Position numbers and translations under genes: made by a program | The notes under the pieces: model-generated | Told to the model about the DNA's origin: nothing | The model's input: the letters and a program-made list of their open reading frames with translations, nothing else | The model's database searches: none | Source of the DNA: Candidatus Zhuqueibacterota bacterium | Lineage (GTDB): Bacteria > Zhuqueibacterota > Zhuqueibacteria > Zhuqueibacterales > Geothermadaptataceae | DNA length: 38,124 nucleotides | Direction: 5' to 3' | Assembly (NCBI GenBank): GCA_015485525.1 | Contig: WFTM01000226.1 | Span: forward strand, 1-38,124 | Part shown: positions 928 to 20,787 of the stretch, in pieces | Position numbering within the stretch: position 1 is the first letter of the stretch | Layout of the letters: every line of letters starts with the position of its first letter

Positions 928-1149
928 ATGTTGAAGTTTGTCGACCATCTGTCCTGGCCTGTGCTCATCCTTGTCAGCATCTTCATGCTGCTGGCTCCTT
1001 TTCAGCCGATGCCGCATTTTCTTGAAAAGCTGATCATGCTGAAAAATGGCACACTGACCCGCCCGATCGATATATTCGATTTGTTTTTTCACGGTTTTCC
1101 CGCATTCCTGCTGGTGCTGAAAATCGTCCGCAGCCGGAAGAGTGCATGA
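928..1149 (+). CDS. small 2-TM membrane protein (family often annotated 'RND transporter')
   Basis: 73 aa, hydrophobic; characteristic PF.P.PH..EKL.ML..GTL.RPIDIFDL..HG pattern; ATGA stop/start overlap with the next gene. Confidence 0.65.
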   Translation: MLKFVDHLSWPVLILVSIFMLLAPFQPMPHFLEKLIMLKNGTLTRPIDIFDLFFHGFPAFLLVLKIVRSRKSA

Positions 1150-1607
1150 TGCACCTGCGCCTGGTACTGATGGGGATCATTTTTCGGGGCATGCGCGTGC
1201 TGCTCGGTTTGATGCAGCGCATTTTTAATCTGCTGGCTCTGGGCGAATGGCCGCCCTTTGCCGGTGTCGCTGTAATCCTGCGCGACGGTGACCGTGTTCT
1301 GTTCATCGAGCGCAGCGATGGCAATGGATATGGCCTGCCCGGTGGTTTCGTCCGGCTGGATGAAACGGCCGAGGCAGCGGCTATCCGGGAAACGCTGGAA
1401 GAGACCGGCCTGCATGTTGAGCTCGAGGGTATTGTCGGGATTTTATCGGGCGAGCGGGCGGATACCCTGGTGCGCACCGTGGATGTCGTTTACCGGGCCC
1501 GCATTATCGCCGGGGACGTACGGCCGTCGCGCGAGGGCACCTGCTTGTGGTTGGAGCCGGATACGGTCCGCGATGAGATCGCCTTTGGCTACGGCCGGCT
1601 GTTGTGA
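1146..1607 (+). CDS. NUDIX hydrolase
   Basis: Complete Nudix box GGFVRLDETAEAAAIRETLEETGL (GX5EX7REUXEEXGU) with an N-terminal hydrophobic segment. Confidence 0.9.
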   Translation: MMHLRLVLMGIIFRGMRVLLGLMQRIFNLLALGEWPPFAGVAVILRDGDRVLFIERSDGNGYGLPGGFVRLDETAEAAAIRETLEETGLHVELEGIVGILSGERADTLVRTVDVVYRARIIAGDVRPSREGTCLWLEPDTVRDEIAFGYGRLL

Positions 1608-1627
1608 AGAGGTAGGGCTTGCCGGCT

Positions 1628-2080
1628 TCAGTATTCGGTATAGGGCTTGCCGGGGAAGCCGTTTTTGTGCAGAACTTTGAGGCTGTATCTGAGCTGCTTG
1701 TGGCTGCTCAATGGGCCGACGAGCAGCAGATAATTGCTGCCCATGGGATGGATGTTTGAATGGATGCGTCTTTTTTTGAGCCTTTTTTGCATCGCGATGG
1801 CCTCGCCGATGTCGTTGTATTCACCGACGACGATGTTGTACTGGGATGGTGAATGGCCGGGCAGGATGAGCTCACCGCCAGGAGCTTCGAAATGGTCGGG
1901 GTCCGAGCCCTTAAATGATTCGACAAAGTCATGAAAAGCATGCCACAGCCGCGGAAAATAAGCTTTTTCTCCCGCCTTAAAGAAAAATCCGGCAATAAAA
2001 AGCAACCCCAGAACGATCAGAAATTTTCCGACCCCTTCGTTGAACTGGGCAAGAGAAGTGTGTTCATTCTGCGGTGGCAT
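1628..2080 (-). CDS. membrane-anchored SPOR-like domain protein
   Basis: One N-terminal TM helix, then YNIVVGEYNDIGEAIAMQKRLKKRRIHSNIHPMGSNYLLLVGPLSSHKQLRYSLKVLHKNGF, a SPOR-like beta-alpha-beta pattern; AAGGA upstream of ATG. Confidence 0.7.
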   Translation of the reverse strand: MPPQNEHTSLAQFNEGVGKFLIVLGLLFIAGFFFKAGEKAYFPRLWHAFHDFVESFKGSDPDHFEAPGGELILPGHSPSQYNIVVGEYNDIGEAIAMQKRLKKRRIHSNIHPMGSNYLLLVGPLSSHKQLRYSLKVLHKNGFPGKPYTEY

Positions 2081-2233
2081 GTGTAAATCCTTTTTTCACT
2101 GATGCGACAGGGCCGGGTGCTTCCTCGCTCTGGTTCTGATACTGAAAAATTTATGAATCTGGTACAAGGTTGGCCCAACTGTATTTTTGTTAGAAGGTTA
2201 CAGTAAGGCCTGCCGTGGGGTAAAATTTTTCAG

Positions 2234-2286
2234 TTATCCCGGTTTTCCTCGTGCGCAGCGCTCATTGTATGAATGAATCGGGATAA
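2234..2286. repeat. CGGGATAA palindromic repeat, copy 1
   Basis: TTATCCCG ... CGGGATAA, 53 bp; interior shared with copy at 34589. Confidence 0.6.
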
Positions 2287-2657
2287 ATTGCGACAACCTC
2301 AGTCCCTGGGTTGTCTTCTCTCTCGGGTTATATATTTATCAGAACGGAATCGTGTACCAGGTGTGGATTCCTGTATCGATCAGGCTGCGCTGTTTACTCC
2401 ATGCGCGCCGGTTCTTATCTTTTTCCCGATTTCTCTTGGCACATGGTATTACACGCACGGGTAATCGGGAGAACTGAAAAATGCAACAGGGGGTGTTCGG
2501 CTAATCTCATGGTTTCGATTGATTGATGCGGAAAACTTCCGAATTTATGAATTTTCAGATTATCAGCGGATATGGTCCACTTTTCCGGATGCCGTGCACA
2601 AAGCCGGGTTTGTCTGGAGGGAAAGGCATCAGGCCATGAAGTTCCTGCGTACGTATT

Positions 2658-2709
2658 GCTACCCCGGTTTCTTCAAAGATGAACACTTTTCTCCGTAATG
2701 CGGGATAGC
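2658..2709. repeat. CGGGATAA palindromic repeat, copy 2
   Basis: GCTACCCCG ... CGGGATAGC (one mismatch) followed by TGAAAAACTTTGCTC. Confidence 0.5.
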
Positions 2710-2739
2710 TGAAAAACTTTGCTCTGTGATGTGTTTTGT

Positions 2740-2970
2740 CTGGTTATCCGCTTAACTCAGCGCGGTTGCATCTTTTCAATCAGACCACCTGAAACAGCAC
2801 ATGCCTGCACCAGAGCTGTCATTCCGGTTTCCGCGCAGCGCGGGAACCGGAATCTTCCAGACTCCGGCATGTGCCAGAAAAGATGAGATTCCGGCACTGC
2901 GCTTCGCCTGGCCGGAATGACAAATGTCGGAATCTGGGTCAGGCCTGGTTTGCTGAGTAACTGGATACCC
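2740..2970 (-). repeat. MITE-like element, copy A (full length)
   Basis: Ends CTGGTTATCCGCTTAACTCAGC ... GCTGAGTAACTGGATACCC; its reverse complement aligns along its length with copy D. Flanked by TGATGTGTTTTGT / TGATATGTTTTGT. Confidence 0.8.
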
Positions 2971-3256
2971 TGATATGTTTTGTTCTAACGTCTTAATAAG
3001 ATTAAGGTTATAGTGAGATTATCCAGAGCTTGAAAAATTTTCAGGCTAAATGTAGTAAAAACATACAAGATGTTGCAAGAAAATTCTCCGTAACTCTTAT
3101 TTTTCGCATTGTTTATCCCAGTTCATTTACGAGTTTAAGCTGGCCGCCGGGGAAGCCAGGGCAGTACAAAATTTTTGCTCAACGACGTACTTTTCTGCAA
3201 CCGCCGGGAAAAATACAGTTAATCCGGCCCGTTGAGACGTTTTCGGGTTTTTCAGA

Positions 3257-3778
3257 TTACTTGCACATGTCTTTGAGCAATGGCGTCATCAAAGCAGCAC
3301 TCAGATAGCCATCGATAGCCTTCATGGTGGCAACGTTGACGATCATGGTTCTGCGCCGGCCGACATGTTTTTCAACCGCCTCCAGTAACTGGCGTGCACC
3401 AGCCAGAGTATTTCTCGGCCCGACGTAGAGGTAGTAGCGCCCGTCCTCTCCATGATAGCGCAGAAGGTTGATGCGGCTTTTTTTGAGTTCATATTCGAGC
3501 CGAAGACTGGTATGTTCACTGGTGATATCGTAAACGAGAACCACGTAGCATCTGCGGATTGCCTCATCCGGAAAGGCGGTTGCCTGCTGGACCGGCTGCT
3601 CCCTGTTGTCGTATGGCTCATGGTACAGATTGTCCAGAAATGGAATGGGAAAAGTATAGTTGAAGCCGAATCGGACAACGATGATGACAAATACCACCAG
3701 AACCACGATTTTCAGCGCTAACAGCAAAAGGAATTCGATGAAAAACAGCAAAGGATTCTTTTTCGCGTCAAAAGTCAT
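3257..3778 (-). CDS. membrane-anchored SPOR-like domain protein
   Basis: Strong N-terminal TM segment; CYVVLVYDITSEHTSLRLEYELKKSRINLLRYHGEDGRYYLYVGPRNTLAGARQLLEAVEKH resembles SPOR repeats. Confidence 0.65.
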   Translation of the reverse strand: MTFDAKKNPLLFFIEFLLLLALKIVVLVVFVIIVVRFGFNYTFPIPFLDNLYHEPYDNREQPVQQATAFPDEAIRRCYVVLVYDITSEHTSLRLEYELKKSRINLLRYHGEDGRYYLYVGPRNTLAGARQLLEAVEKHVGRRRTMIVNVATMKAIDGYLSAALMTPLLKDMCK

Positions 3779-4029
3779 TTCTTTTGTTAGTCCTCGTCAC
3801 GTGCTGCTGCCGTGTTATGTCCATCCTGAAAATTCACAAACCTGATAAAAATTCGCTTCAACTCTGTCGTTTCTGTCGAGCTCCACTAACGGCCGCGCCA
3901 GACTACGCTGTAGTCTTGGCTTCTCTGTTTATTCGCATGACGCGCTAATTTTGTGAATGCATCCCTTCTCGTGACACCGCGGCAGCACATAAGCGAAACC
4001 AGATTCCGCCAGTACCGGCCGCACCCCTA

Positions 4030-4216
4030 CTGAGGCGATTCCGGCACGTACATGGCTTGGGCTGGAATCCCATCTTTTTTGGCACGTGCCAGAGTCTGGG
4101 AGATTCCGGTCTTCCCCTGTGGGGGAACCGAAATGACGGTTCGGGAGCAGGCACGTGCTGTTATCAGGCGGTCTGGTTGTCAAGATGCAACCGTGCTGAG
4201 TTAAGTGGATAACCAG
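4030..4216 (+). repeat. MITE-like element, copy B (left end degraded or absent)
   Basis: Shares ATTCCGGTCTTCCCCTG..GGGGAACCGAAATGAC, CAGGCACGTGCTGTTATCAGGCGGTCTGGTTG and the terminal GCTGAGTTAAGTGGATAACCAG with copies A and D. Confidence 0.75.
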
Positions 4217-4334
4217 ACCGAACATCGCCTTAATTTTATTTTATCATGAAGTTACGATGATAAACCCCGCGGCGCAATATTTTTCGGCCTTACCTGCTTC
4301 TTTTGTACAAAGCGCATATTACGAAGGCTCCGGG

Positions 4335-4886
4335 TTAATGACCCGGTGACAGAATACGCGCTTCTTCATAGCCTGCAGATTGCACGATCTGCAGAGCCCG
4401 CCTGGCCTGTGACCGGCTGATGAGATCGCTGACAAGAACAAAATAACGCCCCTGCCGGTAAACGGATGAAGCCCAGAGCCTGTTTTGTTTCAGCTTGTAG
4501 ATTGCCCGCGTCGCCGCTGTCCGATCCGCTGTAGTGAAAACCAGAATCCGGTAAGTTGACAGGCGCAGTGATTCGATGGTTTGCGTTGACAGACCGGTTG
4601 GCAGCTCGGGAAAAGCCGTATCCGGAAGCGAAGTGCCGTATGAGTGCAGGCGCTCAGTATTGCCCGGGATGTGTTGGATGAGCCATCCGGGCAAAATTTG
4701 TTCGAGGGGGTTACGTCCGGCTGCGATTTCGAGAGTACAGTAGATGATCAACAACGCCGCACCGGCAGGTACGAGGAAGGCCTTGATGAACTTCCCCAGT
4801 AATTCCCAAAAAGCATCAAACGGAGGTTTGGGTTTTGGTGGGTCTGGTTTGAAGACGTACTTGAATTCACCTGTTGGTAGTAACAT
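4335..4886 (-). CDS. membrane-anchored SPOR-like domain protein
   Basis: Start placed at the internal Met (MLLPTGEFKYVF...), with AAGGGGAG just upstream; TM segment then YRILVFTTADRTAATRAIYKLKQNRLWASSVYRQGRYFVLVSDLISRSQARRALQIVQSAGY. Confidence 0.65.
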   Translation of the reverse strand: MLLPTGEFKYVFKPDPPKPKPPFDAFWELLGKFIKAFLVPAGAALLIIYCTLEIAAGRNPLEQILPGWLIQHIPGNTERLHSYGTSLPDTAFPELPTGLSTQTIESLRLSTYRILVFTTADRTAATRAIYKLKQNRLWASSVYRQGRYFVLVSDLISRSQARRALQIVQSAGYEEARILSPGH

Positions 4887-5239
4887 ATGGCTCCCCTTGG
4901 ATTTGAGTGCAGAACGGTCGTTTGCACATCCTGTAGCGAGACCACGTTGTGCCGGCAAGCTGGAGTCGTCGTGAAGATACTGCCGTACCTCAAATATGGA
5001 AAGTCGTGCCGGTTAGCCCGTACCGGCAAAGCCCGGGGAAGAGGGAGATACAGCATGATGCGGACTCAGGAACGTACCGTGTGATGATCCACGTCCGGAG
5101 TCGAATCCAAACAGGGCGAGGTCAGGATGATTGAATTGTGTAAAATATACGTTTTTTCGATCATTTTCACAAGAAATTTTCGAATTTGCAATGTTTTGCA
5201 CATCTGCACAGAAGCAGCACGACGGCCTGCATCCCAATA

Positions 5240-7561
5240 TCATTCCCCGCTGATTTTCGCATACCACTTTTTAACCACGTTTTCCGCCAGCTTGCCGTTG
5301 GGGGTAAAGCCGCTGTGGCTGCCGCCGCCAGACTCCAGGACTGTGGGCCATTTCCAGAGGTAAATGCCGGCGAGCCACGGCCGCCGGTAAAATGCTCTGA
5401 AAAAGGCGTCGTAAGCCCGCATTTGTGCCTGTTCGTCAGCCGGCTGGCCGCGACCATCGCGATGCGGTTCGATCCACGGCGCGGGTCTGCTGGCATAGCC
5501 TGTCTCTGTTAACAGCACCGGTTTCTGAAATTTTTTGCTGACTGCACCGATACGTTCTGCGACCTGGCGCGCGCCTGCGAGCAGTTCCGCGTCCGAGGCG
5601 TTCGGATTGTCGCTCAAGGGGTAATAGCTGTTGACGCTGATGGCGTCGAGGGCATCCCAGAACGTGATGTTTTCAAACTCCTCTCCCCAGTTGGCGGAAT
5701 AGAGCAGCTTGCCGTGGTAAATTTTCCGGATCCGTCCGATCAGCTCCCGCCATTCCTGTTCATGGCCGATGGTGGTCCTGGCCAGCTCGACGCCAATGCT
5801 GAAACTTTCGGTCTGCAGCATTTCAGCGAGTATGGCGTAGTGCATGATCCAGTCGCTGTAATAGACGAAAAAACGCTGCCAGTCCTGTGCGTTGTTCATG
5901 GCGATGTCTCCGGGCCAACTGCTGTGGGAGACCCAGAGGTGTGGTTTCATCATGATGCGCATGTTTTTCCGCCGCGCCCGGGCAATGGCGACGATCAGGC
6001 TTTCGTCGTTTTCAGAGCCGGCACCGGTGCTCAGGCCGATGGGAACCGGCCGGTTTTTTTCGCGCAGGAAACCGAAAGGGGTGATGGAGATGGCGTTGAC
6101 GTTCAGCTCCTGCAGGCGTTGCAGTGCAGCCTCGGCAGTTGAGCCCATGTAGCCGTTGTAAACCGCATAACCCTCGTGCGCAAAGCAAAAACCGCGGGCA
6201 AACTGCCAGACCGTAGGTGCCCTTCCCGTTTGCGGCCTGGGCAGCATGGCGCGGCTCCAGGTACGCCACTGCTGGATCAGTTTGGGAGAAAAGTAGCGCG
6301 GAAATGTGGCGGCGTCCAACCTGGCCGGCGTTTGTCTGAGAAATTTTTTCAGTTCCTGGGGTGAGTAGTGAAAAAGTACGAGCTGCAGCAGAGTCGCAGC
6401 CTGCACCTCGCTGACGTAGCGGCTGATGCGGCGCTCCGCCGGAGCGAAGATCAGCTCGAATGGCGGAAAGATGGCGTTGTGGAAAAACATCCCCGCCCAT
6501 ACCGGATATCCTTTGCCGCCCCAGGCATCGGAGAACAGCACACCGGCGCCGCGCAGCAGCAGGGGGTTGGGTACCTCTCCGGCAAAGTGCCAGGTGATGT
6601 ATTCAGCGATGGCTGTGTAATCCGCGCCGACCGCATTTTCACTGAACACGATGTGCACGACAGAGCTGCCCGTTTGCCAGTGTGAAAGCCGTGAATTGCG
6701 TGTGGCAATGGTTTTGCTTTCCGAGCTTTCGTAGAGTTTCAGCCGGATCGGCAGGAAACGTCTCCTTTGCTCAGCATCGATTTGCAGGATAGCGCACTGT
6801 TCTTCCACGAGCTGCTTTTGCCGGGCCAGAAAAGCCCGGATTTTTTCCCGGTCAGGTGATCTGCCGATGTAATCTACGATAAATATCGAATCAGCTGAAA
6901 CTCTGCGCAGCGAATGCAGCAGGTTGATTTCCCGGTTCCTGCTGATCACCCAGGGGGCGGAGGGGCGCGGTTGGGACAAAAAACCATAAGCGAGCAGTTC
7001 CTGCCCGCGGCGGATGGTGTAGTCTGCAATCAGCTCAGGGCTGCGCCTGCCGGGTTGAAATTCTGCCAGGATTGCCTGGTCTGAGTTGCCGGTGATGATC
7101 TGCAACCATTGCCCGGGCCGAAGAGGATTGGGCATGCGCAGCAGCAGGCGATCGCCCCGGTTGTCATAGGTGTGACCATTGATGCGAAAACTGTCCCGGT
7201 TCATATCAAAAGGGAGCGCAGGCAGAAGGCGTTGCAGCAGGGGGTTGTTCCCGGGGCGTCCGACCAGTGTTATGGGAGTGTTTGCAGGCAGGGAATCAGC
7301 AGCCGAAACCGGGATGGCTGTAGTGCGGATGTACCGTCCGCGTCGCATCTGACCGAGCCGCTGCTCGTAGAGCGCCGCTGTTTTACCCTGATCCGGGTAC
7401 AGATAAACGATGCGGCGATGTTGCCACAGGCGTGATTGCAGTTCCTGCTTGTCCGGCCATAGGGATGTTTCGCCCTGTCCGCTCAGGAGCGGAGACAGCG
7501 ATGATGAGAAAAACAACAGCCACGAAACGAGGCTGCTTCGATAAAATCGTGGCATAGGCAA
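5240..7561 (-). CDS. glycoside hydrolase family 113-like protein with additional N-terminal region
   Basis: C-terminal half: RGFCFAHEGYAVYNGYMGSTAEAALQRLQELNVNAISITPFGF...IMMKPHLW...IGVELARTT...LLYSANWGEEFENITFWDALDAISVNSYYPL...KPVLLTETGYASR...GIYLWKW, typical of GH113 TIM barrels; signal-peptide-like N-terminus. Confidence 0.82.
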   Translation of the reverse strand: MPMPRFYRSSLVSWLLFFSSSLSPLLSGQGETSLWPDKQELQSRLWQHRRIVYLYPDQGKTAALYEQRLGQMRRGRYIRTTAIPVSAADSLPANTPITLVGRPGNNPLLQRLLPALPFDMNRDSFRINGHTYDNRGDRLLLRMPNPLRPGQWLQIITGNSDQAILAEFQPGRRSPELIADYTIRRGQELLAYGFLSQPRPSAPWVISRNREINLLHSLRRVSADSIFIVDYIGRSPDREKIRAFLARQKQLVEEQCAILQIDAEQRRRFLPIRLKLYESSESKTIATRNSRLSHWQTGSSVVHIVFSENAVGADYTAIAEYITWHFAGEVPNPLLLRGAGVLFSDAWGGKGYPVWAGMFFHNAIFPPFELIFAPAERRISRYVSEVQAATLLQLVLFHYSPQELKKFLRQTPARLDAATFPRYFSPKLIQQWRTWSRAMLPRPQTGRAPTVWQFARGFCFAHEGYAVYNGYMGSTAEAALQRLQELNVNAISITPFGFLREKNRPVPIGLSTGAGSENDESLIVAIARARRKNMRIMMKPHLWVSHSSWPGDIAMNNAQDWQRFFVYYSDWIMHYAILAEMLQTESFSIGVELARTTIGHEQEWRELIGRIRKIYHGKLLYSANWGEEFENITFWDALDAISVNSYYPLSDNPNASDAELLAGARQVAERIGAVSKKFQKPVLLTETGYASRPAPWIEPHRDGRGQPADEQAQMRAYDAFFRAFYRRPWLAGIYLWKWPTVLESGGGSHSGFTPNGKLAENVVKKWYAKISGE

Positions 7562-7562
7562 G

Positions 7563-7964
7563 TTATCCCATTTGTGCAGCAGTACGCATTCCGAAAACCG
7601 TGGCGAGGGGGAAGACAGCGATACCTAGGAACCAGAACCAGCCCGGGTGCGGCAGCATGATCATATTGGTGATACCGGCGATGAGCAAAATCAGGCCGAC
7701 CAGCAGCGCAGGCCTGCCGTTATCTTTACCAGCGATGCGCACTGCCAGCCAGGTTCCTGTAAATGTCCCCAGCCCCCAGCCGGCCAGGACGATAAGAAAC
7801 GCAGTCATCGGCAAGTTATCTATGTGCTTCTGCATCGCAACCGTGTCGTTGATGTCGATGTCTTTTGGCAGAGGGTAGGCCTGGTGCCCGAGCATTTCCA
7901 CGAACATGATGATGATAATTGCACTCAGTGTCCCGGCAAAAGCCGCCATCAGGGAGCGACTCAT
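7563..7964 (-). CDS. conserved 4-TM small membrane protein of unknown function
   Basis: 133 aa, four hydrophobic segments; Shine-Dalgarno AAAGGAAT before ATG. Confidence 0.7.
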   Translation of the reverse strand: MSRSLMAAFAGTLSAIIIIMFVEMLGHQAYPLPKDIDINDTVAMQKHIDNLPMTAFLIVLAGWGLGTFTGTWLAVRIAGKDNGRPALLVGLILLIAGITNMIMLPHPGWFWFLGIAVFPLATVFGMRTAAQMG

Positions 7965-8352
7965 GGTGATTCCTTTCGGATAAGATATTCAAAATAGGAT
8001 GGATCGGTTTTTATTTACCGTTATGTGCTCTTGTTTTTCTGAGTATAAGCAAGTCCGGGCGCTTTGTCAAGAACGGTTCACCGTTCTGTGGGCCACGCGG
8101 AGCAGGCAGGAGAAAAATACCGGGAACGGGTTCGGGTTTGTTTAAAAAACTCTGTCGCTGTTGTCATGAAGATGCGTGCCCGCAAAATTCACCCTGAAAA
8201 AATTATGATGCCGGGGCAGGGTTTTGTAATTTTTTGATTTACAATTCATGCGCGTTTTTACGACATTCCATAGCCTGAAAAATTCATGTCGCGATGCACG
8301 GCTGTGGGCAAAATTCTTCCGCATTCTGACGCTCCCGGCGCGAAATACTCTT

Positions 8353-8392
8353 TTATCCCGATTTACAGTGATCGTGGTAAGAATCGGGATAA
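8353..8392. repeat. CGGGATAA palindromic repeat, copy 3
   Basis: Perfect 11-bp arms TTATCCCGATT ... AATCGGGATAA. Confidence 0.65.
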
Positions 8393-8511
8393 GCCGTATA
8401 TTGCACAGTTTGTGAGTTACACAGGCAATAGGCTTGTGTTCGGCTTTATCAATTTGCAGATTCATACATGCCATGCCCGCAGCAAATCATATCTGAAACC
8501 GGAGAATAACG

Positions 8512-9885
8512 ATGCGAACGATAATCGAACCCTTTCGAATCAAGATGACGGAGGAAATCAGGCTGGTTCCGCGCGAACAACGCGAGAAAGCCCTGAAAGA
8601 GGCGCACTACAATGTCTTTCTCCTCGATGCTGAACTCTGCCCGATCGATCTGCTGACTGACAGCGGCACGGGCGCCATGTCAGCAAAGCAATGGGCAGCA
8701 CTCATGCTCGGCGACGAGAGCTATGCCGGTAGCAAATCGTGGAAAAAGTTCGAGAATGCCGTCCGTACGATCACCGGCTTTAAGCACATCCTGCCCACTC
8801 ACCAGGGGCGGGCTGCTGAGGGCATTCTGGCGCAGACGCAGATTCGTGAGGGGGATGTCATCCCCAACAACAGCCATTTCGACACCACGCGCGCAAATTT
8901 CGAATTTGTTGGCGCCACGGCCCTGGACCTGGTGTGCGATGAAGGTATGCAGCCGGGGTTGGATGCTCCTTTTAAGGGCAATATGGATATCGAAAAACTG
9001 CGTACCTGCATCGAAACCCATGGCAGGGAGCGCATCCCCTTTTGCATGATCACGGTGACCAACAATACCGGTGGCGGCCAGCCGATCTCGATGCAGAATA
9101 TCCGTGAGGTCAAAGCTGTGCTGAAGGAATACGGCATACCGCTGGTGATCGATGCCTGCCGTTTTGCAGAAAACGCCTATTTCATCCGCGAGCGGGAGCA
9201 CGGCTACGGCGATAAATCGTTGCTGGAAATTGCACAAGAGATGTTTTCCTATGCGGATGCTGCCACGATGAGCGCGAAGAAAGATGGCCTGGCGAATATC
9301 GGCGGTTTTCTTGCCTGTCATGATGATAGCTGGGGTGAAGCCTTCCGCAATGCGCTGATCATGCGCGAGGGGTTTCCAACCTACGGCGGGCTGGCCGGCC
9401 GTGATCTCGAAGTCATCGCTGTCGGCCTGATGGAAGCGCTGGAGTACGATTACCAGGTCTATCGCCACGCGACGATCACTTACCTCGGGAAAAAGTTTGA
9501 AGAGCGGAATATTCCTTTTGTCAAACCCGTAGGTGGGCACGCGCTGTTCATCGATGCAAAAGAATTTTTACCGCACATTCCCCCACTGCACTATCCGGGG
9601 ATCGGCCTGGTGAACGCGCTCTACGTCGATGGCGGCATCCGTGGTGTTGAGCTGGGCAGTGTCATGTTTGGTAAAAAAGATGACCAGGGTGTTGAAAAAC
9701 CGGCCCGTCTCGAACTGGTGCGGCTCGCTTTCCCGCGTCGTGTTTACACACAGAGCCATTTCGATTATATCGTCGAGGTCATCGATGATGTTTTGCAGCA
9801 CCGGGATCAGATACCCGGCTATCGCATCACCAGACAACCGCAGTACCTGCGCCATTTTACCTGCCATTTTGAGCCGATGAAGTGA
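8512..9885 (+). CDS. tnaA: tryptophanase (beta-eliminating lyase family, PLP)
   Basis: EPFRIKM...PIDLLTDSGTGAMS..QWAALMLGDESYAGS, PTHQGRAAE, DTTRANFE, TNNTGGGQPISMQNIR, MSAKKDGLANIGGF (PLP lysine), RLAFPRRVYTQSHFD. Closer to tryptophanase (FDTTRA, SAKKD) than tyrosine phenol-lyase by recalled motif comparison. Confidence 0.9.
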   Translation: MRTIIEPFRIKMTEEIRLVPREQREKALKEAHYNVFLLDAELCPIDLLTDSGTGAMSAKQWAALMLGDESYAGSKSWKKFENAVRTITGFKHILPTHQGRAAEGILAQTQIREGDVIPNNSHFDTTRANFEFVGATALDLVCDEGMQPGLDAPFKGNMDIEKLRTCIETHGRERIPFCMITVTNNTGGGQPISMQNIREVKAVLKEYGIPLVIDACRFAENAYFIREREHGYGDKSLLEIAQEMFSYADAATMSAKKDGLANIGGFLACHDDSWGEAFRNALIMREGFPTYGGLAGRDLEVIAVGLMEALEYDYQVYRHATITYLGKKFEERNIPFVKPVGGHALFIDAKEFLPHIPPLHYPGIGLVNALYVDGGIRGVELGSVMFGKKDDQGVEKPARLELVRLAFPRRVYTQSHFDYIVEVIDDVLQHRDQIPGYRITRQPQYLRHFTCHFEPMK

Positions 9886-9933
9886 GACAGAGACAGAACA
9901 GGAAGGGCAACGCCGCAGCGCTGCGCCCGTGAG

Positions 9934-11385
9934 ATGAAAAATTCAGTCGGGACAGATATCATGCAGAGTGATGACAAATTGGGTGCATCCCGGATCGGGG
10001 CGGGGTATGCAGAATTCCACTTCGGTTTTATCAAAGCAGCAATCCTGCTGGCGTTCTGGGGCGGTTTTGCTGTCGGTGCACATTCCATATCTGTGATGGG
10101 GCTCGGCTTTGCACCCGGCCCCGGATTTTTTGCCTTCAACCAGGTGCACGGGCAGCTCCAGCTCATGGGGTGGGTCGGCTTGTTCGTCATGGGCATCAGC
10201 CTGTTCTTTCTGCCGCGTTTTGCCGGCGTGCCGCTGGAAGAACCGCATCGCCAGGGCCAGATCCTCTGGCTCATGGTCAGCGGCCTGCTGTTGCGTTATT
10301 TTTCCCAGTCCCTGCTGCCCTACTTTGATGATCCGCTCTATTGGAATATCCTCGGATTTCTCGCTGTCCTGTCGGCGTTTTTCATCCTTTTTGCTGTCGC
10401 TCTCTATGTGACCACGCTGTTGATGACCATGCACACGGTTTTTGCCGGCAAGGCCCGTCCGGCGGTGCACACGGTTGCGCCTTTTTTTGCAATGATGCTG
10501 GCCGGGTGGTTGCTCTATGTCATGATCAATTTCGCCCTCGTGGCCCTGATGGTCGCCCAGAAAAAAGTCGTTCTGCCCTATGGATGGAACCAGTTCATGA
10601 TCGACCTTTTTGTGCTGCTCTCTCTGGTGCCGATCAGTTTCGGCGTTGGCCTGCGCACCTTGCCTCTCTACATGCGTTTGCCGTCGCAGAACTGGCCGGT
10701 TCGCCCGGCAGCCTGGGTATATCTTGCCGGGGTGGCGGTCAAGCTGCTGGCTGACCTTTTGTTGCTGCTCGGTTGGGATAGCATGGTGCTGCTCTATGTG
10801 AGCCGTGCCGGCACGATTGCATACAGCGCTGTTGTCGTGCTGCTGATCTGGAAGCTGGATGTCCTCACCCGGCTGCAACAACCCTGGACAGAAGGCCGAA
10901 ACGAGCCCGTTAAGCCGGACCGAAAGCCCACCCGCCCGGGCATGCCGGACTATGGCGAATTCGGGGCTTTTGAAAAGCTCATCCGTGCCGCCTTTTTCTG
11001 GCTGCTGTTTGCCGCGGTCTCGGAACTGACGGTGAGCATCGCATGGCTGCTCGGCCACGAACCCATGGCGAGCCGTGACGCTATACGGCACATGTATCTC
11101 ATGGGCTTTATCACCCACCTGATCTTCGGAATGGCACCGAGGATGATCCCCGGTTTTCTGCACAAACGTGCGGTTGCCCGCCCGAGGCTGGTGCAGTTTT
11201 CTTACTGGCTGCTGCTGATGGCCGCTGTTTTCCGCATCATTCCTCTGCTTTTGCCCCTTTCCCTCGAGGAAATGTTGCCTGTGTTGTTTAAATTCCTTAA
11301 AATAGGTCTCTCTTTTTCCGGAGTGTTTGCCATGCTCGCTGTGGCCGTGCTCTGGGTTAATCTACGCGATACCGCGCGCTCTTGA
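9934..11385 (+). CDS. NnrS-family multi-TM haem/copper protein
   Basis: Polytopic; FFAFNQVHGQLQLMGWVGLFVMGISLFFLPRF and RHMYLMGFITHLIFGMAPRMIPGFL, hallmark NnrS segments. Confidence 0.82.
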   Translation: MKNSVGTDIMQSDDKLGASRIGAGYAEFHFGFIKAAILLAFWGGFAVGAHSISVMGLGFAPGPGFFAFNQVHGQLQLMGWVGLFVMGISLFFLPRFAGVPLEEPHRQGQILWLMVSGLLLRYFSQSLLPYFDDPLYWNILGFLAVLSAFFILFAVALYVTTLLMTMHTVFAGKARPAVHTVAPFFAMMLAGWLLYVMINFALVALMVAQKKVVLPYGWNQFMIDLFVLLSLVPISFGVGLRTLPLYMRLPSQNWPVRPAAWVYLAGVAVKLLADLLLLLGWDSMVLLYVSRAGTIAYSAVVVLLIWKLDVLTRLQQPWTEGRNEPVKPDRKPTRPGMPDYGEFGAFEKLIRAAFFWLLFAAVSELTVSIAWLLGHEPMASRDAIRHMYLMGFITHLIFGMAPRMIPGFLHKRAVARPRLVQFSYWLLLMAAVFRIIPLLLPLSLEEMLPVLFKFLKIGLSFSGVFAMLAVAVLWVNLRDTARS

Positions 11386-11404
11386 ATGAACATGTGAGAT
11401 ACCT

Positions 11405-12442
11405 ATGGATAACAAAAAAGTCGCCCGCTGGATGTTCTGGCTCGCAGGACTCGCGGCCGTGATGGTCGTGCTCGGCGGGCTGGTCAGGTTGACCCAGTCC
11501 GGTCTGTCGATGACCGACTGGGATGTATTGATGGGGATTGTCCCGCCCATGACCGAGCAGGGCTGGCAGCAGGAGTTCGAGCAATATAAACAGTTTCCTG
11601 AGTATAAGCTGGTTAACAAGGGGATGGCGCTTTCTGAGTTCAAGTTTATTTTTTATATGGAATATCTGCACCGCATGCTCGGTCGGGTAATCGGCCTGGT
11701 TTATTTTATCCCGCTGGTGATTTTCTGGCGCAGAGGCACAATTCCAGGGGAGCAGCGCCTGGCGTTTTTGGGTATCGGGGTGCTGCTGCTGTTTCAGGGG
11801 CTGTTCGGATGGTATATGGTTAAAAGTGGCCTGGTGGACCGGCCGCATGTGAGCCATTTTCGCCTCACCGGACACCTGTTGCTGGCCATGGCGTTCATCG
11901 CCGCTACCCTGTGGATGGGCATGCGCTGGCTGTACGATCAGACTGCATCTGCTAAGCGTGTGTTTTCAGCGCAAGCTGAGAAAACCACGCGAATCTTTCT
12001 CTGGGTTCTTATCGGACAGGTCGCTCTCGGTGGTCTGGTTGCAGGCCTCAAAGCCGGGTCTGTCTCACCGACTTTCCCCCTCATGCACGGCACATGGATT
12101 CCGCCGCTGGCCTGGTCTTTCGAACCATGGTATATGAATTTTTTTGAAAATCCTGTCATGATTCATTTTCTGCATCGCTGGAATGCTTTTGTCGTCCTCT
12201 TCTTTGCTTTTTATCTCGTCAGGCTGTTGTATCGCGAGCAGCACTTTGAGCTGATAAAGATGCCCGTCATCGTGCTCAGTGTATTGATCAACCTGCAGCT
12301 TCTGCTGGGCATATTCACCGTGTTGATGAACGTCCCGGTTGCGCTGGCGTCGCTGCATCAGGCCGTGGCTCTGCTGTTGTTCGTTTTTACGATAATACTG
12401 CGCTATTCTGTTCGCGCAGAGAACACCGTGTCTGTCAAATAA
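11405..12442 (+). CDS. ctaA: haem A synthase (COX15/CtaA family)
   Basis: GGLVRLTQSGLSMTDWDVLMGIVPPMTEQGWQQEFEQYKQFPEY, EYLHRMLGR, H..RLTGHLLLA, MIHFLHRWNAF, LASLHQAVALLL. Confidence 0.92.
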   Translation: MDNKKVARWMFWLAGLAAVMVVLGGLVRLTQSGLSMTDWDVLMGIVPPMTEQGWQQEFEQYKQFPEYKLVNKGMALSEFKFIFYMEYLHRMLGRVIGLVYFIPLVIFWRRGTIPGEQRLAFLGIGVLLLFQGLFGWYMVKSGLVDRPHVSHFRLTGHLLLAMAFIAATLWMGMRWLYDQTASAKRVFSAQAEKTTRIFLWVLIGQVALGGLVAGLKAGSVSPTFPLMHGTWIPPLAWSFEPWYMNFFENPVMIHFLHRWNAFVVLFFAFYLVRLLYREQHFELIKMPVIVLSVLINLQLLLGIFTVLMNVPVALASLHQAVALLLFVFTIILRYSVRAENTVSVK

Positions 12443-12451
12443 GGATCATCG

Positions 12452-12919
12452 ATGTCGCAAAAAGCCTTTCAGGACTACTACCCCGACCATCTCAGCCATT
12501 GCTACGGTTGTGGCAGGCTCAATGAACACGGCTTGCAGATCAAAAGCTTCTGGCGCGGCGAGGAGGCGGTGTGCACATTTCAGCCGCGGCCCTATCACAC
12601 CGCGGTACCCGGTTATGTTTACGGCGGGCTGATCGCTTCGGTGATCGACTGTCATGCAACGGGCACGGCTGCTGCAGCAGCCTATCGTGCAGCCGGGCGG
12701 GAGATGGGCTCAGAGCCGGCGTTTCGTTTTGTCACAGCTTCGTTAAAGGTCGATTACCTCAAACCAACGCCCATCACCACGGAAATGCAACTGGTCGCTC
12801 GCATTGTTGAGGTTAAGGCGCGCAAAGTCAGAGTTGCTATTGACCTCATGAGCGGCGAAGAGCTCTGCGCCCGCGGATATGTTGTGGCTGTGCAGGTGCC
12901 GGAAGAATGGGGCCTGTGA
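12452..12919 (+). CDS. PaaI-like hotdog-fold thioesterase
   Basis: HCYGCGRLNEHGLQIKSFW...GYVYGGLIASVIDCHATGTAAAAA...TASLKVDYLKPTPITTEMQLVARI. Confidence 0.85.
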   Translation: MSQKAFQDYYPDHLSHCYGCGRLNEHGLQIKSFWRGEEAVCTFQPRPYHTAVPGYVYGGLIASVIDCHATGTAAAAAYRAAGREMGSEPAFRFVTASLKVDYLKPTPITTEMQLVARIVEVKARKVRVAIDLMSGEELCARGYVVAVQVPEEWGL

Positions 12920-13128
12920 TAGGCCGGCAGGAAGGTGGTTTGACGAGTCAGCGAAGAAATTCCCTCGTCCCGTCTGCCTTTGCAAAAAGCGCCGCGTTGT
13001 CAGTCGAGTGTTTAATGTTTGCTTTATTTGAAATGATCGGGTAGTCCATGCAGGGGCCTGCAATGAACAATACGAACGCGTCGCTGGAGCGGCGCATGGT
13101 TTCAGGATCAAGAGAGAGGAAATGCACG

Positions 13129-15204
13129 ATGAAATTCAACCCGAAAAATGTCAGGTTCTCCACAGCGGCCGGTACAGGCCTCTGGCTTGTATTGCTGTTG
13201 TGGGCGGCCAGCCTTGTCGCCGGAGATGTGCTGTCGCCGGATGATCTGCTGCGCATCCGTTCGGTCACTTCAGCGAGCATCAGCCCGGATGGCCAGTGGA
13301 TCGCATACACGGTCTCTGTCCCGCGTGAGGCGGACGAGCCCGCTGGCGGGGCCTGGAGCGAGCTGCATGTTGTTTCCACCCGCAGCGGAGAGTCACGGCC
13401 GTTCATCACCGGTAAAGTATCCATCCGCGCCCTGGCCTGGAAGCCCGATGGTTCGGCTATTTCGTTTCTCACCCGCCGGAATGGTGGCCTGACACAGGTT
13501 TGGATGATTCCGATGGCTGGTGGAGAAGCGCAACAGGTGACCCACGCAGATAATCATATTTTCAGCTATGCATGGCATCCCTCCGGGGAAAAGATCGCCT
13601 GGCTGGCGACACCGCCGAAGAGCGCGCGCCAGCGTGCCCTGGAGAAAAAAGGCTACGGCTTTATCTATTTCGAAGAGAATCTGCGTCACCGCAATCTCTA
13701 CATCGCTGATGCAGGCAGTGCCGCAAGTGAACAACTGACCAAAGACATCACGCTGTGGGATTTCACCTTTTCGCCTGACGGTAACACGATCGCTTTTTCC
13801 GCTTCGCCGCAGAACCTCATCGACCAGCGCTACATCGGCCAGAGTATCTATATCCTGAATCTCGCAGACAAATCCGTACGCCGTTTGACGGATAATCCGC
13901 GCAAGTTGGGCAATTTTCGCTTCAGCCCTGACGGCAGGCAGCTCGCTTTTGCCGCAGCGCTGGACCGCAAAGACAACGCCATCAGTCAGGCTTTTGTTAT
14001 CCCCGTCACCGGTGGGAAGGCCCGCAACCTGACACCGCCGAATTTTCGCGGCCATATCAACTGGGTTGGCTGGAAAGATAAAAAGACGCTGCTGTACATG
14101 GCCGGCGAAGGCACGATGACGACGCTGAGCACGGTGAAAGCCAGCGGCGGCAAACGCAAGGTCATCCTGCATTCAAAGGACAGCGGCATCGTCACTGCGC
14201 CGCCGTCCTACACCCGTGACGTCCGCCATTTTGCCTTTGTTGGCCAGTCACCGCAGATTCCGCGCGACCTGTTTTACTGGCAGCCGGGCAAAGCGCTCAA
14301 GCGCCTGACGACGGTCAACCCCTGGCTGGCCGAGCGTGAACTCGGCAAACAGGAGGTGATCACCTACAAGGCCAGCGATGGCCAGGCCATCGAAGGTATT
14401 CTGATCTATCCGGTCGGCTATGAAAAAGGTAAGACGTATCCGTTGATCGTGCTGGTGCACGGCGGCCCGGAGACGCACTATTCCAATGGCTGGCTGAGCC
14501 GCTATGCAACGCCGGGACAGGTTCTGGCCGGAAAAGGATACGCCGTATTTCATCCCAATTATCGCTCGAGCTCTGGCTATGGCATCGAATTTTCTGCAAC
14601 AGGCTATAACGACGCTGCCGGGCGCGAATTCGATGATATCGCTGATGGTATCGACCACCTCATCGCCATCGGGCTGGCGGATAAAAAACGGGTCGGAATG
14701 GGCGGAGGCTCCTATGGCGGCTATGCTTCCGGCTGGTTTGCAACCTATTACACGGACAAGGTTCGTGCTGTGTGTATGTTTGTCGGCATCAGCGATCTGA
14801 TCAGCAAGCGCGGTACCACGGATATTCCTTACGAAGAATTATATGTCCATTCCGGCAAGAAATTGGAAGAAATGTGGCAGGAAAGCCTGAAGCGCAGCCC
14901 GATCTACTGGGCGCACCAGAGCAAAACCGCGACGCTGATCTACGGCGGTACTGCCGACACGCGCGTGCACCCATCGCAGAGCCTGGAGCTGTACCGGCGC
15001 ATGAAAATGAACGACCACCCAGCAGTTCGCCTGGTGCAGTATCCGGGGGAACCCCATGGCAATCGTAACCAGACCGGCCAGCGCGATGTGGTGTATCGTA
15101 TTCTCGACTGGTGGGACTGGTACGTACGCGATCTCAAGCCTCTGGATGGCCCCAAGCCGCCGCTTGATATCAGCGCACGCTATGGCATAGAGTTGCCACA
15201 GTAA
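13129..15204 (+). CDS. S9-family prolyl oligopeptidase / acylaminoacyl-peptidase-like serine peptidase
   Basis: Internal ATG with GAGAGAGGA upstream; beta-propeller SPDG repeats; GGGSYGGYASG nucleophile, Asp (GTADTRVHPSQS) and His (YPGEPHGNR) of the triad. Confidence 0.92.
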   Translation: MKFNPKNVRFSTAAGTGLWLVLLLWAASLVAGDVLSPDDLLRIRSVTSASISPDGQWIAYTVSVPREADEPAGGAWSELHVVSTRSGESRPFITGKVSIRALAWKPDGSAISFLTRRNGGLTQVWMIPMAGGEAQQVTHADNHIFSYAWHPSGEKIAWLATPPKSARQRALEKKGYGFIYFEENLRHRNLYIADAGSAASEQLTKDITLWDFTFSPDGNTIAFSASPQNLIDQRYIGQSIYILNLADKSVRRLTDNPRKLGNFRFSPDGRQLAFAAALDRKDNAISQAFVIPVTGGKARNLTPPNFRGHINWVGWKDKKTLLYMAGEGTMTTLSTVKASGGKRKVILHSKDSGIVTAPPSYTRDVRHFAFVGQSPQIPRDLFYWQPGKALKRLTTVNPWLAERELGKQEVITYKASDGQAIEGILIYPVGYEKGKTYPLIVLVHGGPETHYSNGWLSRYATPGQVLAGKGYAVFHPNYRSSSGYGIEFSATGYNDAAGREFDDIADGIDHLIAIGLADKKRVGMGGGSYGGYASGWFATYYTDKVRAVCMFVGISDLISKRGTTDIPYEELYVHSGKKLEEMWQESLKRSPIYWAHQSKTATLIYGGTADTRVHPSQSLELYRRMKMNDHPAVRLVQYPGEPHGNRNQTGQRDVVYRILDWWDWYVRDLKPLDGPKPPLDISARYGIELPQ

Positions 15205-15220
15205 CCATGAGGGTATTCCG

Positions 15221-16126
15221 GTGTATCGCTCCCTGAAAAATGACCTCATCAAACGGTTCGGCGAGCCGGTGTTGAAAATCCCCCTCAACGCCGGCTTCAC
15301 CTGTCCCAATCTCGACGGCAGCAAAGGACGCGGTGGGTGCATCTATTGCGACAACGCCGCGTTCAGCCCGGTGGCCCGCAACCGTGATGATGTCATACAG
15401 CAAATGCACGCCGGAATTAAGCGGGCCGGAGACCGTTTCCGGCTGTTTGTTGCTTATTTTCAGCCTTACTCGAATACCTATGCTGCGGTGGACTATCTGC
15501 GGCAAACTTTCGAGCCGGTGCTGCAGATTCCCGGAGTTGTCGGCATCAGTGTTGGCACGCGGCCGGACTGTTTCAGTGCGGAAATTTATGATTATCTGCA
15601 GGAGCTGGCGGAAAAAACCTGGCTCAGTGTGGAAATTGGCGTGCAGAGCGCTCATGAGCCCACATTGCAGAAAATCAACCGCAAGCACACCTTTGCCGAA
15701 AGCGTTGCTGTCTTCCGGGAACTGGCGGCGCGCAACATCGAGAGCGTTGCCCATGTGATGTTCGGGTTGCCGGGGGAGAGCCGGGAACAGATGCTGGAGA
15801 CAGTGGAAAGGCTGGCAGAGTTGCCTGTAAAAGGCCTGAAGTTTCACCAGCTCATGGTCATCCGCAATACAGCGCTGGAGCACATGTATCGGCGCGGGCA
15901 GTACCAGCCACTGGCTGAAGAAACCTACATCACCCTGGTCGCAGAAGCGATCCGCAGGATGCGACCGGACCAGGTCGTGCATCGCCTGATGGCTGACTGC
16001 CGGCCGCAGGACGGTCTGCTGGCACCGCTGTGGAGCATGCAGAAAAAACGTGTTTTAAACGCCATACAGGTGTATTTACAAAAAAATCATATTCAACAGG
16101 GTGAGTATTTCGCCGCCACACCCTGA
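15221..16126 (+). CDS. TIGR01212-family radical SAM protein (YhcC-like)
   Basis: KIPLNAGFTCPNLDGSKGRGGCIYCDNAAFSP; VGTRPDC; WLSVEIGVQSAH...TLQKINR.HTF; HVMFGLPGESREQML. Starts GTG at 15221 or the ATG-like alternative just upstream. Confidence 0.9.
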   Translation: MYRSLKNDLIKRFGEPVLKIPLNAGFTCPNLDGSKGRGGCIYCDNAAFSPVARNRDDVIQQMHAGIKRAGDRFRLFVAYFQPYSNTYAAVDYLRQTFEPVLQIPGVVGISVGTRPDCFSAEIYDYLQELAEKTWLSVEIGVQSAHEPTLQKINRKHTFAESVAVFRELAARNIESVAHVMFGLPGESREQMLETVERLAELPVKGLKFHQLMVIRNTALEHMYRRGQYQPLAEETYITLVAEAIRRMRPDQVVHRLMADCRPQDGLLAPLWSMQKKRVLNAIQVYLQKNHIQQGEYFAATP

Positions 16127-16156
16127 AACCCCCAAACCCAAGTTCTGGAGACCGAT

Positions 16157-17911
16157 ATGATTCGGCCAAACAGTACGCTATCCGCATTCTTCGTTTTATC
16201 CCTGTCTTTTGCTGCCGTTTCTGGGCAGGAAAAGAGCGCCGCCTCGATCCGCTTTGTCAATGTGCTGGAAAAAGCAGAGATTGATTTTGAACACTTCGGT
16301 GAGCGCCACCGCTGGTGCGAAATAGGCCCGCAGGTCAAAGGCGTTGCCACCAATGAGGAGATCATGCTCGAACTGTTCGACAAGCCGTTTGAATTTGCTG
16401 AACGTCACCTCATCCGCATGAACGGTTCAGGTGCCGCCTGGCTGGATTATGACAACGACGGTGACTGGGATTTATATCTCGTCAACGGTGCCGGCGGAGA
16501 AAACATCACCAATGCGCTGTACGAAAACGACGGTGACGGCACCTTTACCGTGCGGCGTTCTGACGCCGGCGTGCTCGACAAGGGCGAGGGCATGGCCGTT
16601 TCAGTGGCGGATTACGACAACGACGGCTATACCGATATTTTTGTCACCAATTTTGGCGGGTTCGTGCTGTATAAAAACGATGGCGACGGCACTTTTACAG
16701 ACGTTACCAGCAAGGCCTTTGATAAGGTCGATGATATCTGGTACGGCGGCTCGGCATGGGGGGATTTCGACCATGACGGCGACCTCGATCTCTATGTCGC
16801 CGGCTATGTCGATCTGCACAAGCGCGAGAAGCAGACCAGCATGCGCTTCCCTATGGATTTTGGTGGCTTTCCCAACAAACTCTATTTCAACAACGGGGAT
16901 GGCACCTTTACCGAGCGCGCCCATGAGCTGCACGTCAGCGACGGCTTCCGAAAATCCATGCAGGTGCTGGTCGCGGATTTCAATGAAGATACCTGGCCGG
17001 ATATTCTCGTGGCAAATGACACCGATCCGAACTCGCTCTATCTCAATACCGGCGGTGGAAAATTCAAGGAATTTTCCGGGCCGAGCGGCGTCAGCAGCAC
17101 CGATGGCTCTATGGGGCTGGCATACGGTGATTACAACAATGATGGTAAGCTCGACCTGTTTATCTCCAACTACACCGGCGAGGCAGATATTCTGCTGACT
17201 CTGGTCGATAATGAAAGTTCTAATGATGGCAAGCTCAGAAATGCTCTGTTCATCGCAGATTTCAACTCGCCGATCATGCAGAAAAAAACCTGGGGTAAAG
17301 TCGGCTGGGGCACAGGATTTTTCGATTTCGATAACGACGCTGACCTCGATCTCTTTGTCGCCAACGGCCACCTCAACGCCATCAGCGGTGACAACCGCGA
17401 TGACAACCTGGTTTTTGAAAACCGCGGTGACGGGACATTTCGTGATGCGACCGCTTCATCGGGCGTGCTCGATGCCGGCAAGCGTATCTATCGCAGCGCG
17501 ATTTTTGCCGACTATGATGGGGATGGCAGGGTGGATATCTACGTCGTCAACAATGGTGAGAAAACCTACGACGCTTCAGAAGACCGGCGAGGTGTATTGC
17601 TGAAGAATATCAGTCCGGCCAAAAACGCCTGGTTGCACGTCCGCTTACAGGGCACGAAGTCAAACCGGGACGCCTACGGTACGCGGGTGTGGGTGACCGC
17701 TGGTGGCAAAACCCAGGTCCAGGAGCTGGTATCCGGAGCCGGCTATTTTTCTGCAGATGCGCGTGAGCTGTATTTTGGCCTCGGCAAAGCTGAAAAAGTG
17801 GATGAACTGCGCATCCGCTGGCCCCTGGGCAGCGAGCAGGTATTCTCCGATATCCCGGTGAATCAGCGTATCCTCATCGTCGAGGGCGATAAGAAGATTC
17901 TTAAAAAATGA
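16157..17911 (+). CDS. secreted CRTAC1-like protein: FG-GAP/VCBS beta-propeller repeats plus ASPIC/UnbV domain
   Basis: Signal peptide; repeated YDNDGDWDLY / DYDNDGYTDIFV / DFDHDGDLDLYV Ca-binding loops; C-terminal NAWLHVRLQGTKSNRDAYGTRVWVTAGGKTQVQEL...FGLGKAEKVDELRIRWP. Confidence 0.93.
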   Translation: MIRPNSTLSAFFVLSLSFAAVSGQEKSAASIRFVNVLEKAEIDFEHFGERHRWCEIGPQVKGVATNEEIMLELFDKPFEFAERHLIRMNGSGAAWLDYDNDGDWDLYLVNGAGGENITNALYENDGDGTFTVRRSDAGVLDKGEGMAVSVADYDNDGYTDIFVTNFGGFVLYKNDGDGTFTDVTSKAFDKVDDIWYGGSAWGDFDHDGDLDLYVAGYVDLHKREKQTSMRFPMDFGGFPNKLYFNNGDGTFTERAHELHVSDGFRKSMQVLVADFNEDTWPDILVANDTDPNSLYLNTGGGKFKEFSGPSGVSSTDGSMGLAYGDYNNDGKLDLFISNYTGEADILLTLVDNESSNDGKLRNALFIADFNSPIMQKKTWGKVGWGTGFFDFDNDADLDLFVANGHLNAISGDNRDDNLVFENRGDGTFRDATASSGVLDAGKRIYRSAIFADYDGDGRVDIYVVNNGEKTYDASEDRRGVLLKNISPAKNAWLHVRLQGTKSNRDAYGTRVWVTAGGKTQVQELVSGAGYFSADARELYFGLGKAEKVDELRIRWPLGSEQVFSDIPVNQRILIVEGDKKILKK

Positions 17912-18079
17912 TGGCCTGCACCAGCTTCAGAGTGAGGCAGGGGGCTGCAATCCCGCGGGAAGATACAGTTAGACTCCTGCTCGGTCACCGGTCCCCGGGC
18001 ATGCGCGACAGATGCCCGCACTTCAGCGCGGGGAATGAAGACGCGCGGCAGGTTACTCCTGTGATGAAAGGGAAAACAA

Positions 18080-18508
18080 GTGAACTATTACGCTTTGCTT
18101 GCTGGAATTGCGATTGCTGTATTTGTGGTAGCCCGATTCAAGAAAACAAAACTTGAAAAAAGAAAATGGGTTTACCCGGTATTGCTTGCAACATTCCCGA
18201 TCTACTACTGGGCATTTGCTCTCTATGCTGCAGACTATGGGGCACTCATTTCTGAAGTTGGAATTGGGCTCGCTTTCTTCTTCGTAGCCATTATCGCGTA
18301 CAGGCTGAACAGCGTAACAGGACTCATATTATTGGCCATTGGATACATCCTTCATGGGGGATATGATGTCATCCACAATTCATTTTTCATCAACCCGGGC
18401 ACACCGGTGTGGTGGCCGGAGTTCTGTGGCGCTGTCGATGTGTTCATCGGTGTTTACTTGCTGTATTTCGGGGTTTCGGTCAAAGGGCGTGCCCCAAAAA
18501 TTGCATAG
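18080..18508 (+). CDS. small multi-TM membrane protein (DUF6010-like)
   Basis: 142 aa, about 4 TM; GYILHGGYDVIHN...GTPVWWPEFCGAVDVFIGVYL. Confidence 0.65.
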   Translation: MNYYALLAGIAIAVFVVARFKKTKLEKRKWVYPVLLATFPIYYWAFALYAADYGALISEVGIGLAFFFVAIIAYRLNSVTGLILLAIGYILHGGYDVIHNSFFINPGTPVWWPEFCGAVDVFIGVYLLYFGVSVKGRAPKIA

Positions 18509-18611
18509 CAAACGCGTCGAGACGGCCTGGCAACCTCGCAGTGTTTCGTTGCCGGCCGGCCATGCGCAGCGATAGCAGGGAAAAGAGTATCGCGCATATC
18601 GCCGGGCAGTT

Positions 18612-20218: not shown

Positions 20219-20373
20219 TATACTGCTGAGATAAAATCAATGTAAAATATAAATTAATGCTTTTACTCCACAGGTTCTGTTTATATATTAGCGGATTGTC
20301 AGGTCGCCTGAATCGTGTCGGGCTTGACTTACAAGTCTGTACAGACAAGCAGACCCCGATGCCAGCAGCACAT

Positions 20374-20412
20374 GGTTGTCAGGAATGACGTAACTCGACA
20401 TTTATGTCGAGC
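20374..20412. repeat. direct repeat containing palindrome CTCGACATTTATGTCGAG, copy 1
   Basis: GGTTGTCAGGAATGACGTAACTCGACATTTATGTCGAGC. Confidence 0.7.
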
Positions 20413-20440
20413 GCAGGATAGCGCATAAAACAGTTATTCT

Positions 20441-20674
20441 CAGGGTATCCAGTTAACTCAGCTAGCCGGTTCTAATCCAGAAATTGACATCTGTCATTCC
20501 GGCCAGGTGCAGCGCCGTGCTGGAATCTCATCTTTTCCGGCACGTGCCCGAGTCAGGGAGATTCCGGTCTTCCCCTGCGGGGAAACCGGAATGACGGTTC
20601 TGGTGCAGGCATCTCCGTGCTCTGGCGGGCTGGCAGTAAAGATGCGACAATGCTGAGTTAAGTGGATAACCAGA
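20441..20674 (+). repeat. MITE-like element, copy D (full length)
   Basis: CAGGGTATCCAGTTAACTCAGC ... GCTGAGTTAAGTGGATAACCAG; 234 bp, nearly the same length as copy A. Confidence 0.82.
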
Positions 20675-20748
20675 CTGTTATCCCAACAAATCGGAGTTGC
20701 GTACCACGACACTTATGTTGTGACCTTCCCGAGATATCAGGTGCCCAC

Positions 20749-20787
20749 GGTCGTCAGGAGTAGCGTAACTCGACATTTATGTCGAGC
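20749..20787. repeat. direct repeat containing palindrome CTCGACATTTATGTCGAG, copy 2
   Basis: GGTCGTCAGGAGTAGCGTAACTCGACATTTATGTCGAGC. Confidence 0.7.

Follow-up and report, generated by a model that had tools for sequence, protein, structure and literature searches.

A large MITE family of Calditrichota with 9-bp target duplications and host-specific interiors

The short dispersed repeat described here is very probably a MITE, apparently of type II, the ends of which would be recognised by a trans-acting DDE transposase, with 9-bp target duplications as the outcome. It represents a new and large MITE family in the phylum Calditrichota, of a kind that is itself well known, with activity after two close species diverged. 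Good descriptions of MITEs are confined to a few model phyla. Calditrichota is an uncultivated phylum in which the MITE ends are common to several families and the interiors have been replaced. The ends, the 9-bp duplication and a weak target preference together provide a precise handle for finding the enzyme. The MITE family also accounts for some of the repeats by which these metagenome assemblies are probably broken up.

Copies in the window

The window is the whole stretch of DNA that was analysed (38,124 nucleotides) and belongs to a genome of 4.55 Mb in 493 contigs (G000). The element is 235 bp long, non-coding and bounded by imperfect terminal inverted repeats (TIRs) of 22-23 bp (YNNGGNTATCCANTTAACTCAGC). 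The following features were assigned, partly by comparison with a genome of the same genus (G001):

2730-2738, no strand: left target duplication of copy A, TGTGTTTTG, 8/9 against the right copy; a single TGTGTTTTG in G001
2739-2973, plus strand: MITE copy A, full-length (235 bp), with TIRs, an 8/9 target duplication and a clean empty site in G001
2818-2921, no strand: interior of copy A, with a pair of REP-like hairpin modules that face inward (GTCATTCCGG ... CCGGAATC / GATTCCGG ... CCGGAATGAC), from invariant blocks in a 31-copy alignment, motif positions and free-standing GTCATTCCGG hairpins in relatives
2974-2982, no strand: right target duplication of copy A, TATGTTTTG, 8/9 match to the left copy
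4064-4217, minus strand: MITE copy B, lacking the left end and with a 44-bp deletion against the G001 orthologue, right TIR intact, from repeat alignment and pairwise alignment to G001 contig C25
20064-20219, minus strand: MITE copy C, 5'-truncated near 20064, right TIR intact, from repeat alignment and sequence
20431-20439, no strand: left target duplication of copy D, CAGTTATTC, 7/9 match to 20675-20683
20440-20674, minus strand: MITE copy D, full-length (235 bp), orientation opposite to A, with TIRs, a 7/9 target duplication and an empty site in G001 contig C28
20675-20683, no strand: right target duplication of copy D, CTGTTATCC; a single CTGTTATCC at the G001 empty site

A sequence-only reading of the window had aligned A with D from end to end. 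This was confirmed: once reverse-complemented, A can be aligned with D over its whole length as two blocks free of gaps, one of 113 nt with 81% identity and one of 101 nt with 79%. Its coordinates needed correction, since the target duplications fix the true ends at 2739 and 2973 for A and at 20440 and 20674 for D, 1-3 bases further out. Copy A is oriented so that the long-arm TIR, TCTGGTTATCC, comes first. In copy D, the left end (CAGGGTATCCAGTTAACTCAGC) is identical to the inverted right end (CTGGTTATCCACTTAACTCAGC) at 19 of 22 positions; the TIRs are imperfect as had been reported, with one more identity than the count of about 18 given at the time. The 9-bp flanks of copy A, tgtgttttg and tatgttttg, agree at 8/9 positions as read from the sequence and were confirmed by the empty site, and those of copy D, cagttattc and ctgttatcc, agree at 7/9. 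Both B and C, earlier described as partial, are truncated in the repeat alignment. No ORF of at least 100 aa overlapping A, B, C or D was found, in agreement with the intergenic position that had been proposed for them.

Several other features of the window were recorded. Copy D is bracketed by a 55-bp direct repeat (82%; 20358-20412 and 20733-20787) with the palindrome TCGACATTTATGTCGA inside it; in another MAG, DRR093004_bin.59, the core GACATTTATGTC recurs as a dispersed hairpin. Copies A and B lie between the genes of three short, probably membrane-anchored proteins that are encoded close together on the minus strand (1628-2080, 3257-3778 and 4335-4958) and are seemingly similar in their C-terminal halves; the first matches SPOR (PF05036) and the other two have no Pfam match. 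An ORF of 713 aa (24031-26172) resembles the cbb3 oxidase subunits CcoN and CcoO fused into one protein, with a haem-copper oxidase and, after it, a cytochrome c part containing CNNCH. A 74-bp direct repeat (92%, 180-bp spacing; 37871-37944 and 38051-38124) reaches the contig end, so that the contig breaks in a repeat.

Target duplications and empty sites

Target duplication was analysed at the flanks of 80 unique elements with both ends, drawn from several genomes. Perfect 9-bp duplications flank 35 of them, compared to a mean of 0.33 and a maximum of 3 perfect matches in shuffled pairings of the flanks. Mean flank identity was 0.75 at 9 bp versus about 0.24-0.33 at 4-8 and 10-13 bp. A weak, symmetric TTA/TAA target preference was found 4-6 bp outside the duplication. 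The elements of DRR093004_bin.59 apparently have 8-bp duplications (two perfect cases and one of 7/8).

Empty orthologous sites, which the sequence-only reading had proposed to look for in relatives, were found for A and D in G001. Contig C25 of this genome aligns to window positions 1000-2739 and 2971-19827 with 96% identity and at site A reads TGTGTTTTG followed by TTCTAACG, only the element and one target copy being absent. At site D, contig C28 carries a single CTGTTATCC and no element, and the 30 bases to the left are diverged. Because the element is absent and the target single in G001, A and D were most likely inserted after the split of the two species; their precise loss in G001 is a less likely alternative. 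Copy B is older than A and D, since it is present in G001 as well and had already lost its left end there. At the place of copy C the G001 contigs stop on both sides. Compared to the G001 orthologue, the 44 bp of copy B following position 4063 are missing from the window's lineage; GGAAT is found at both edges of the deleted stretch (window 4063-4064), which suggests a deletion between short repeats.

Copy number and conservation

When at most 1 mismatch is allowed, the TIR core TATCCNNTTAACTCAGC occurs 283 times in G000, 141 times forward and 142 times reverse, and the reversed-pattern control not once. A BLAST search with copy D gave at least 42 matches among the 40 of 289 candidates that were scored. 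The core count, set against its control, and the BLAST matches show that the repeat is far beyond chance. The 283 cores correspond to an estimated 140 or so two-ended copies, more if some lack one end, and by estimate the element makes up about 1% of the genome. Copies that can be aligned end to end (31 in G000) have a mean column identity of 85% and pairwise identities of 77-97%, with conserved ends. By script, one of 32 two-ended elements of G000 lies wholly within an ORF of at least 100 aa with a margin of more than 60 bp on each side, and 17 of the 32 partially overlap such an ORF.

Occurrence in both orientations, earlier noted for the window, holds for A (plus) and D (minus) and for the large number of copies in the genome. 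Few copies, unconserved boundaries and a lack of empty sites had been named in advance as findings against mobility, and each was looked for: the genome-wide search returned many copies with conserved boundaries, and empty sites exist. Of the properties by which a MITE is recognised, TIRs at both ends, a duplication of fixed length, a short body without a transposase gene and empty sites are found here; a matching transposase, as the last piece of the case, was sought without success. Together with the high copy number and the absence of coding capacity they support the earlier view of a non-autonomous, MITE-like element.

Distribution and interiors in other genomes

Of 82 genomes from the phylum Calditrichota, 9 carry these ends, as does one further MAG. 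TIR-core counts were 444 in G001, 65 in G003 and 12 each in G005, G038 and G044. End pairs confirmed in fetched loci lie 117-353 bp apart, the script covering spacings up to 360 bp and wider spacings being checked by eye. In other genera and families the same TIRs enclose interiors of unrelated sequence, as seen in G003 (types of about 217 and 300 bp), G038, G044 and DRR093004_bin.59. Interiors differ completely between host lineages, with hairpin-rich types in G038 and G044 and another set in DRR093004_bin.59, and the assignment to type II is based on this sharing of sequence with relatives at the ends only. The interiors examined most closely are largely lineage-specific hairpins. Two of these hairpin types were also found on their own, the first in relatives and the second within the same genome. 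The low-copy genomes G035, G037, G006 and G005 contain MITE-sized elements or lone ends, without an IS. TIRs at contig ends of G038 had raised the suspicion of IS copies but turned out to belong to further hairpin-rich MITE interiors.

A GTDB-wide scan with one exact form of the TIR returned records only in Calditrichota/KSB1-type MAGs and in three MAGs with other labels: HyVt-473 (Bacteroidetes), one 'bacterium' and one uncultured-bacterium. The HyVt-473 elements share their interior with those of the window, and HyVt-473 is probably the same-genus genome. A TIR match in a viral contig lies inside a 4303-aa ORF and was dismissed as chance.

Most likely, the element is transposed in trans by a DDE transposase. 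Such an enzyme would recognise the MITE ends and excise or copy the element, which would then be joined to a staggered target cut, resulting in duplications of 9 bp or, in one distant host, apparently of 8 bp. New interiors would have arisen when other non-coding DNA, in many cases hairpin repeats, became enclosed by the ends. It has also been considered, and is regarded as unlikely, that one conserved end pair was repeatedly fitted, in different genera and families, around unrelated non-coding interiors made of the host lineage's own dispersed hairpin repeats; the hundreds of copies, in a genome with no identifiable transposase, would then be an ends-only system that recruits REP-like hairpins under an unrecognised or unusual transposase.

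Interior hairpins and folding

In the genus of the window the interior consists of two inward-facing GTCATTCCGG...CCGGAATC hairpins. The motif GTCATTCCGGYY has 277 sites in G000, about equal to the TIR-core count, and 9 to 41 sites in each of the relatives without this interior. None of 14 such regions examined (G003, G005 and G006) has a TIR, and most are free-standing hairpins. The GACATTTATGTC hairpin of DRR093004_bin.59 likewise occurs inside elements and alone. In G000 the hairpin was seen only near TIRs, in fetched loci that are biased towards MITEs. Hairpins standing alone in relatives, and the strong folding of the element (z about -6), would fit a REP/REPIN-like palindromic repeat mobilised by a RAYT (Y1 tyrosine) transposase. 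The element, however, has clear 9-bp duplications and exact TIR boundaries. Y1 enzymes are not known to make target duplications. A REPIN/RAYT origin is highly improbable and, for the element as a whole, was ruled out by the empty sites together with the duplications of 9 bp; such an origin could still hold for the inner hairpins taken by themselves.

The folding (z -6.2 and -5.7) and the high conservation of the hairpin columns would also be compatible with a selected regulatory or structural element, an RNA-processing or insulating hairpin retained because it serves the host and not as a mobile parasite. This is improbable: RNA covariation gave no support (term +0.51; double changes in only 3 of 52 pairs), there was no Rfam match at gathering thresholds, and the positions differ between sister species. 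A strong fold without covariation is as expected of inverted symmetry and not of selected RNA structure. Host function and mobility are compatible rather than exclusive.

Search for the transposase

None of the TIR-positive genomes, plasmids, phages or viral contigs yielded an element in which these ends enclose a transposase, and plasmids and phages gave no match to the TIR. In G000 the search by transposase family covered DDE_Tnp_1 and Transposase_mut, and neither was detected. Multi-copy IS elements are often lost from MAG assemblies, so that this absence is weak evidence, but the G003 assembly has few contigs and is 98% complete. Among the unpaired ends of G003 listed at 3 mismatches, the surrounding loci contain no recognisable transposase ORF.

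Three transposase genes near MITE ends in other genomes are separate elements or probably coincidental neighbours. The IS4-type transposase at locus L158 of DRR093004_bin.59 was rejected as a partner, being part of a separate IS with its own ends that is inserted inside a MITE. This IS (L158 1-1580) encodes DUF4372 and DDE_Tnp_1 and has ends CAATGCTGTCCCAACG and a 9-bp duplication GTCTGGGAT. Homologues of an IS701-like gene beside a MITE end in G038 (L088) lack these TIRs; one of them, the C-terminus of an IS701-like transposase without MITE ends, lies at a contig edge in G000 (contig C263 8-130, L198). An IS5-type gene beside a G003 MITE (L078) has ends of its own (GAGCCTATCCG). Derivation from the IS256 family was rejected as well: Transposase_mut has no match in G000, and in G003 and DRR093004_bin.59 no such TIR lies near it.

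The element might instead be a type I MITE, an internally deleted derivative of one IS that is missing from the assembly, most plausibly of the IS4 superfamily (IS4Sa/IS10/IS50-like, 8-10 bp duplications). A duplication of 8-9 bp fits IS4Sa, IS10 and IS50, the 9-bp duplication lies within the 8-13 bp range of the IS4 family, and the bases at positions 12-17 resemble conserved IS4/IS231-type end positions. However, the ends do not fully match the conserved termini of any tabulated IS4 subgroup (PMC2266710): YNNGGNTATCC does not fit the CAT/CA/CT/AATR termini of that table, and no transposase family was therefore assigned. Moreover, DDE_Tnp_1 was not detected in G000 or the same-genus genome, and the DDE_Tnp_1 matches looked at in other genomes are not bounded by these TIRs. 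Since the interiors are wholly different between host lineages, they are probably not what remains of a single IS. Derivation from a single IS is thus possible but on the unlikely side, and a type II MITE mobilised in trans is preferred.

Comparison with known systems

The Chunjie MITE of Geobacter uraniireducens, as described in a review (PMC10969869), is 235 bp at full length and mostly intergenic, has TIRs and direct repeats and occurs in tens of full and many partial copies. By that description it is alike in length, intergenic sites, TIRs, direct repeats and the presence of full and partial copies. The GTDB-wide scan for one exact TIR form returned no Geobacter record. MITEAba12 of Acinetobacter (113 bp, 16-bp TIRs, proposed parent ISAba12) is likewise non-coding, with 9-bp target duplications that are detectable in about 40% of copies (PMC6382973). 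It is shorter than the 235-bp element and has a proposed parent, whereas none was found here.

The Correia/NEMIS elements of Neisseria resemble the family in having more than 100 dispersed copies and a strong stem from pairing of the ends, but they have other ends. Correia elements duplicate TA, in contrast to the 9 bp found here.

Duplication lengths in the IS4 group are 8-10 bp for IS4Sa, 9 bp for IS10 and 8-9 bp for IS50 (PMC2266710). The IS4 family is alike in a duplication of about one helix turn and in a loosely similar inner TIR; the element differs in having no attached transposase and in not fully matching a subgroup end signature. The inner hairpins are REP-like dispersed palindromes, as in REPINs and RAYT-mobilised REPs (PMC3116915, PMC2817692), from which the element is set apart by its TIRs and 9-bp target duplications.
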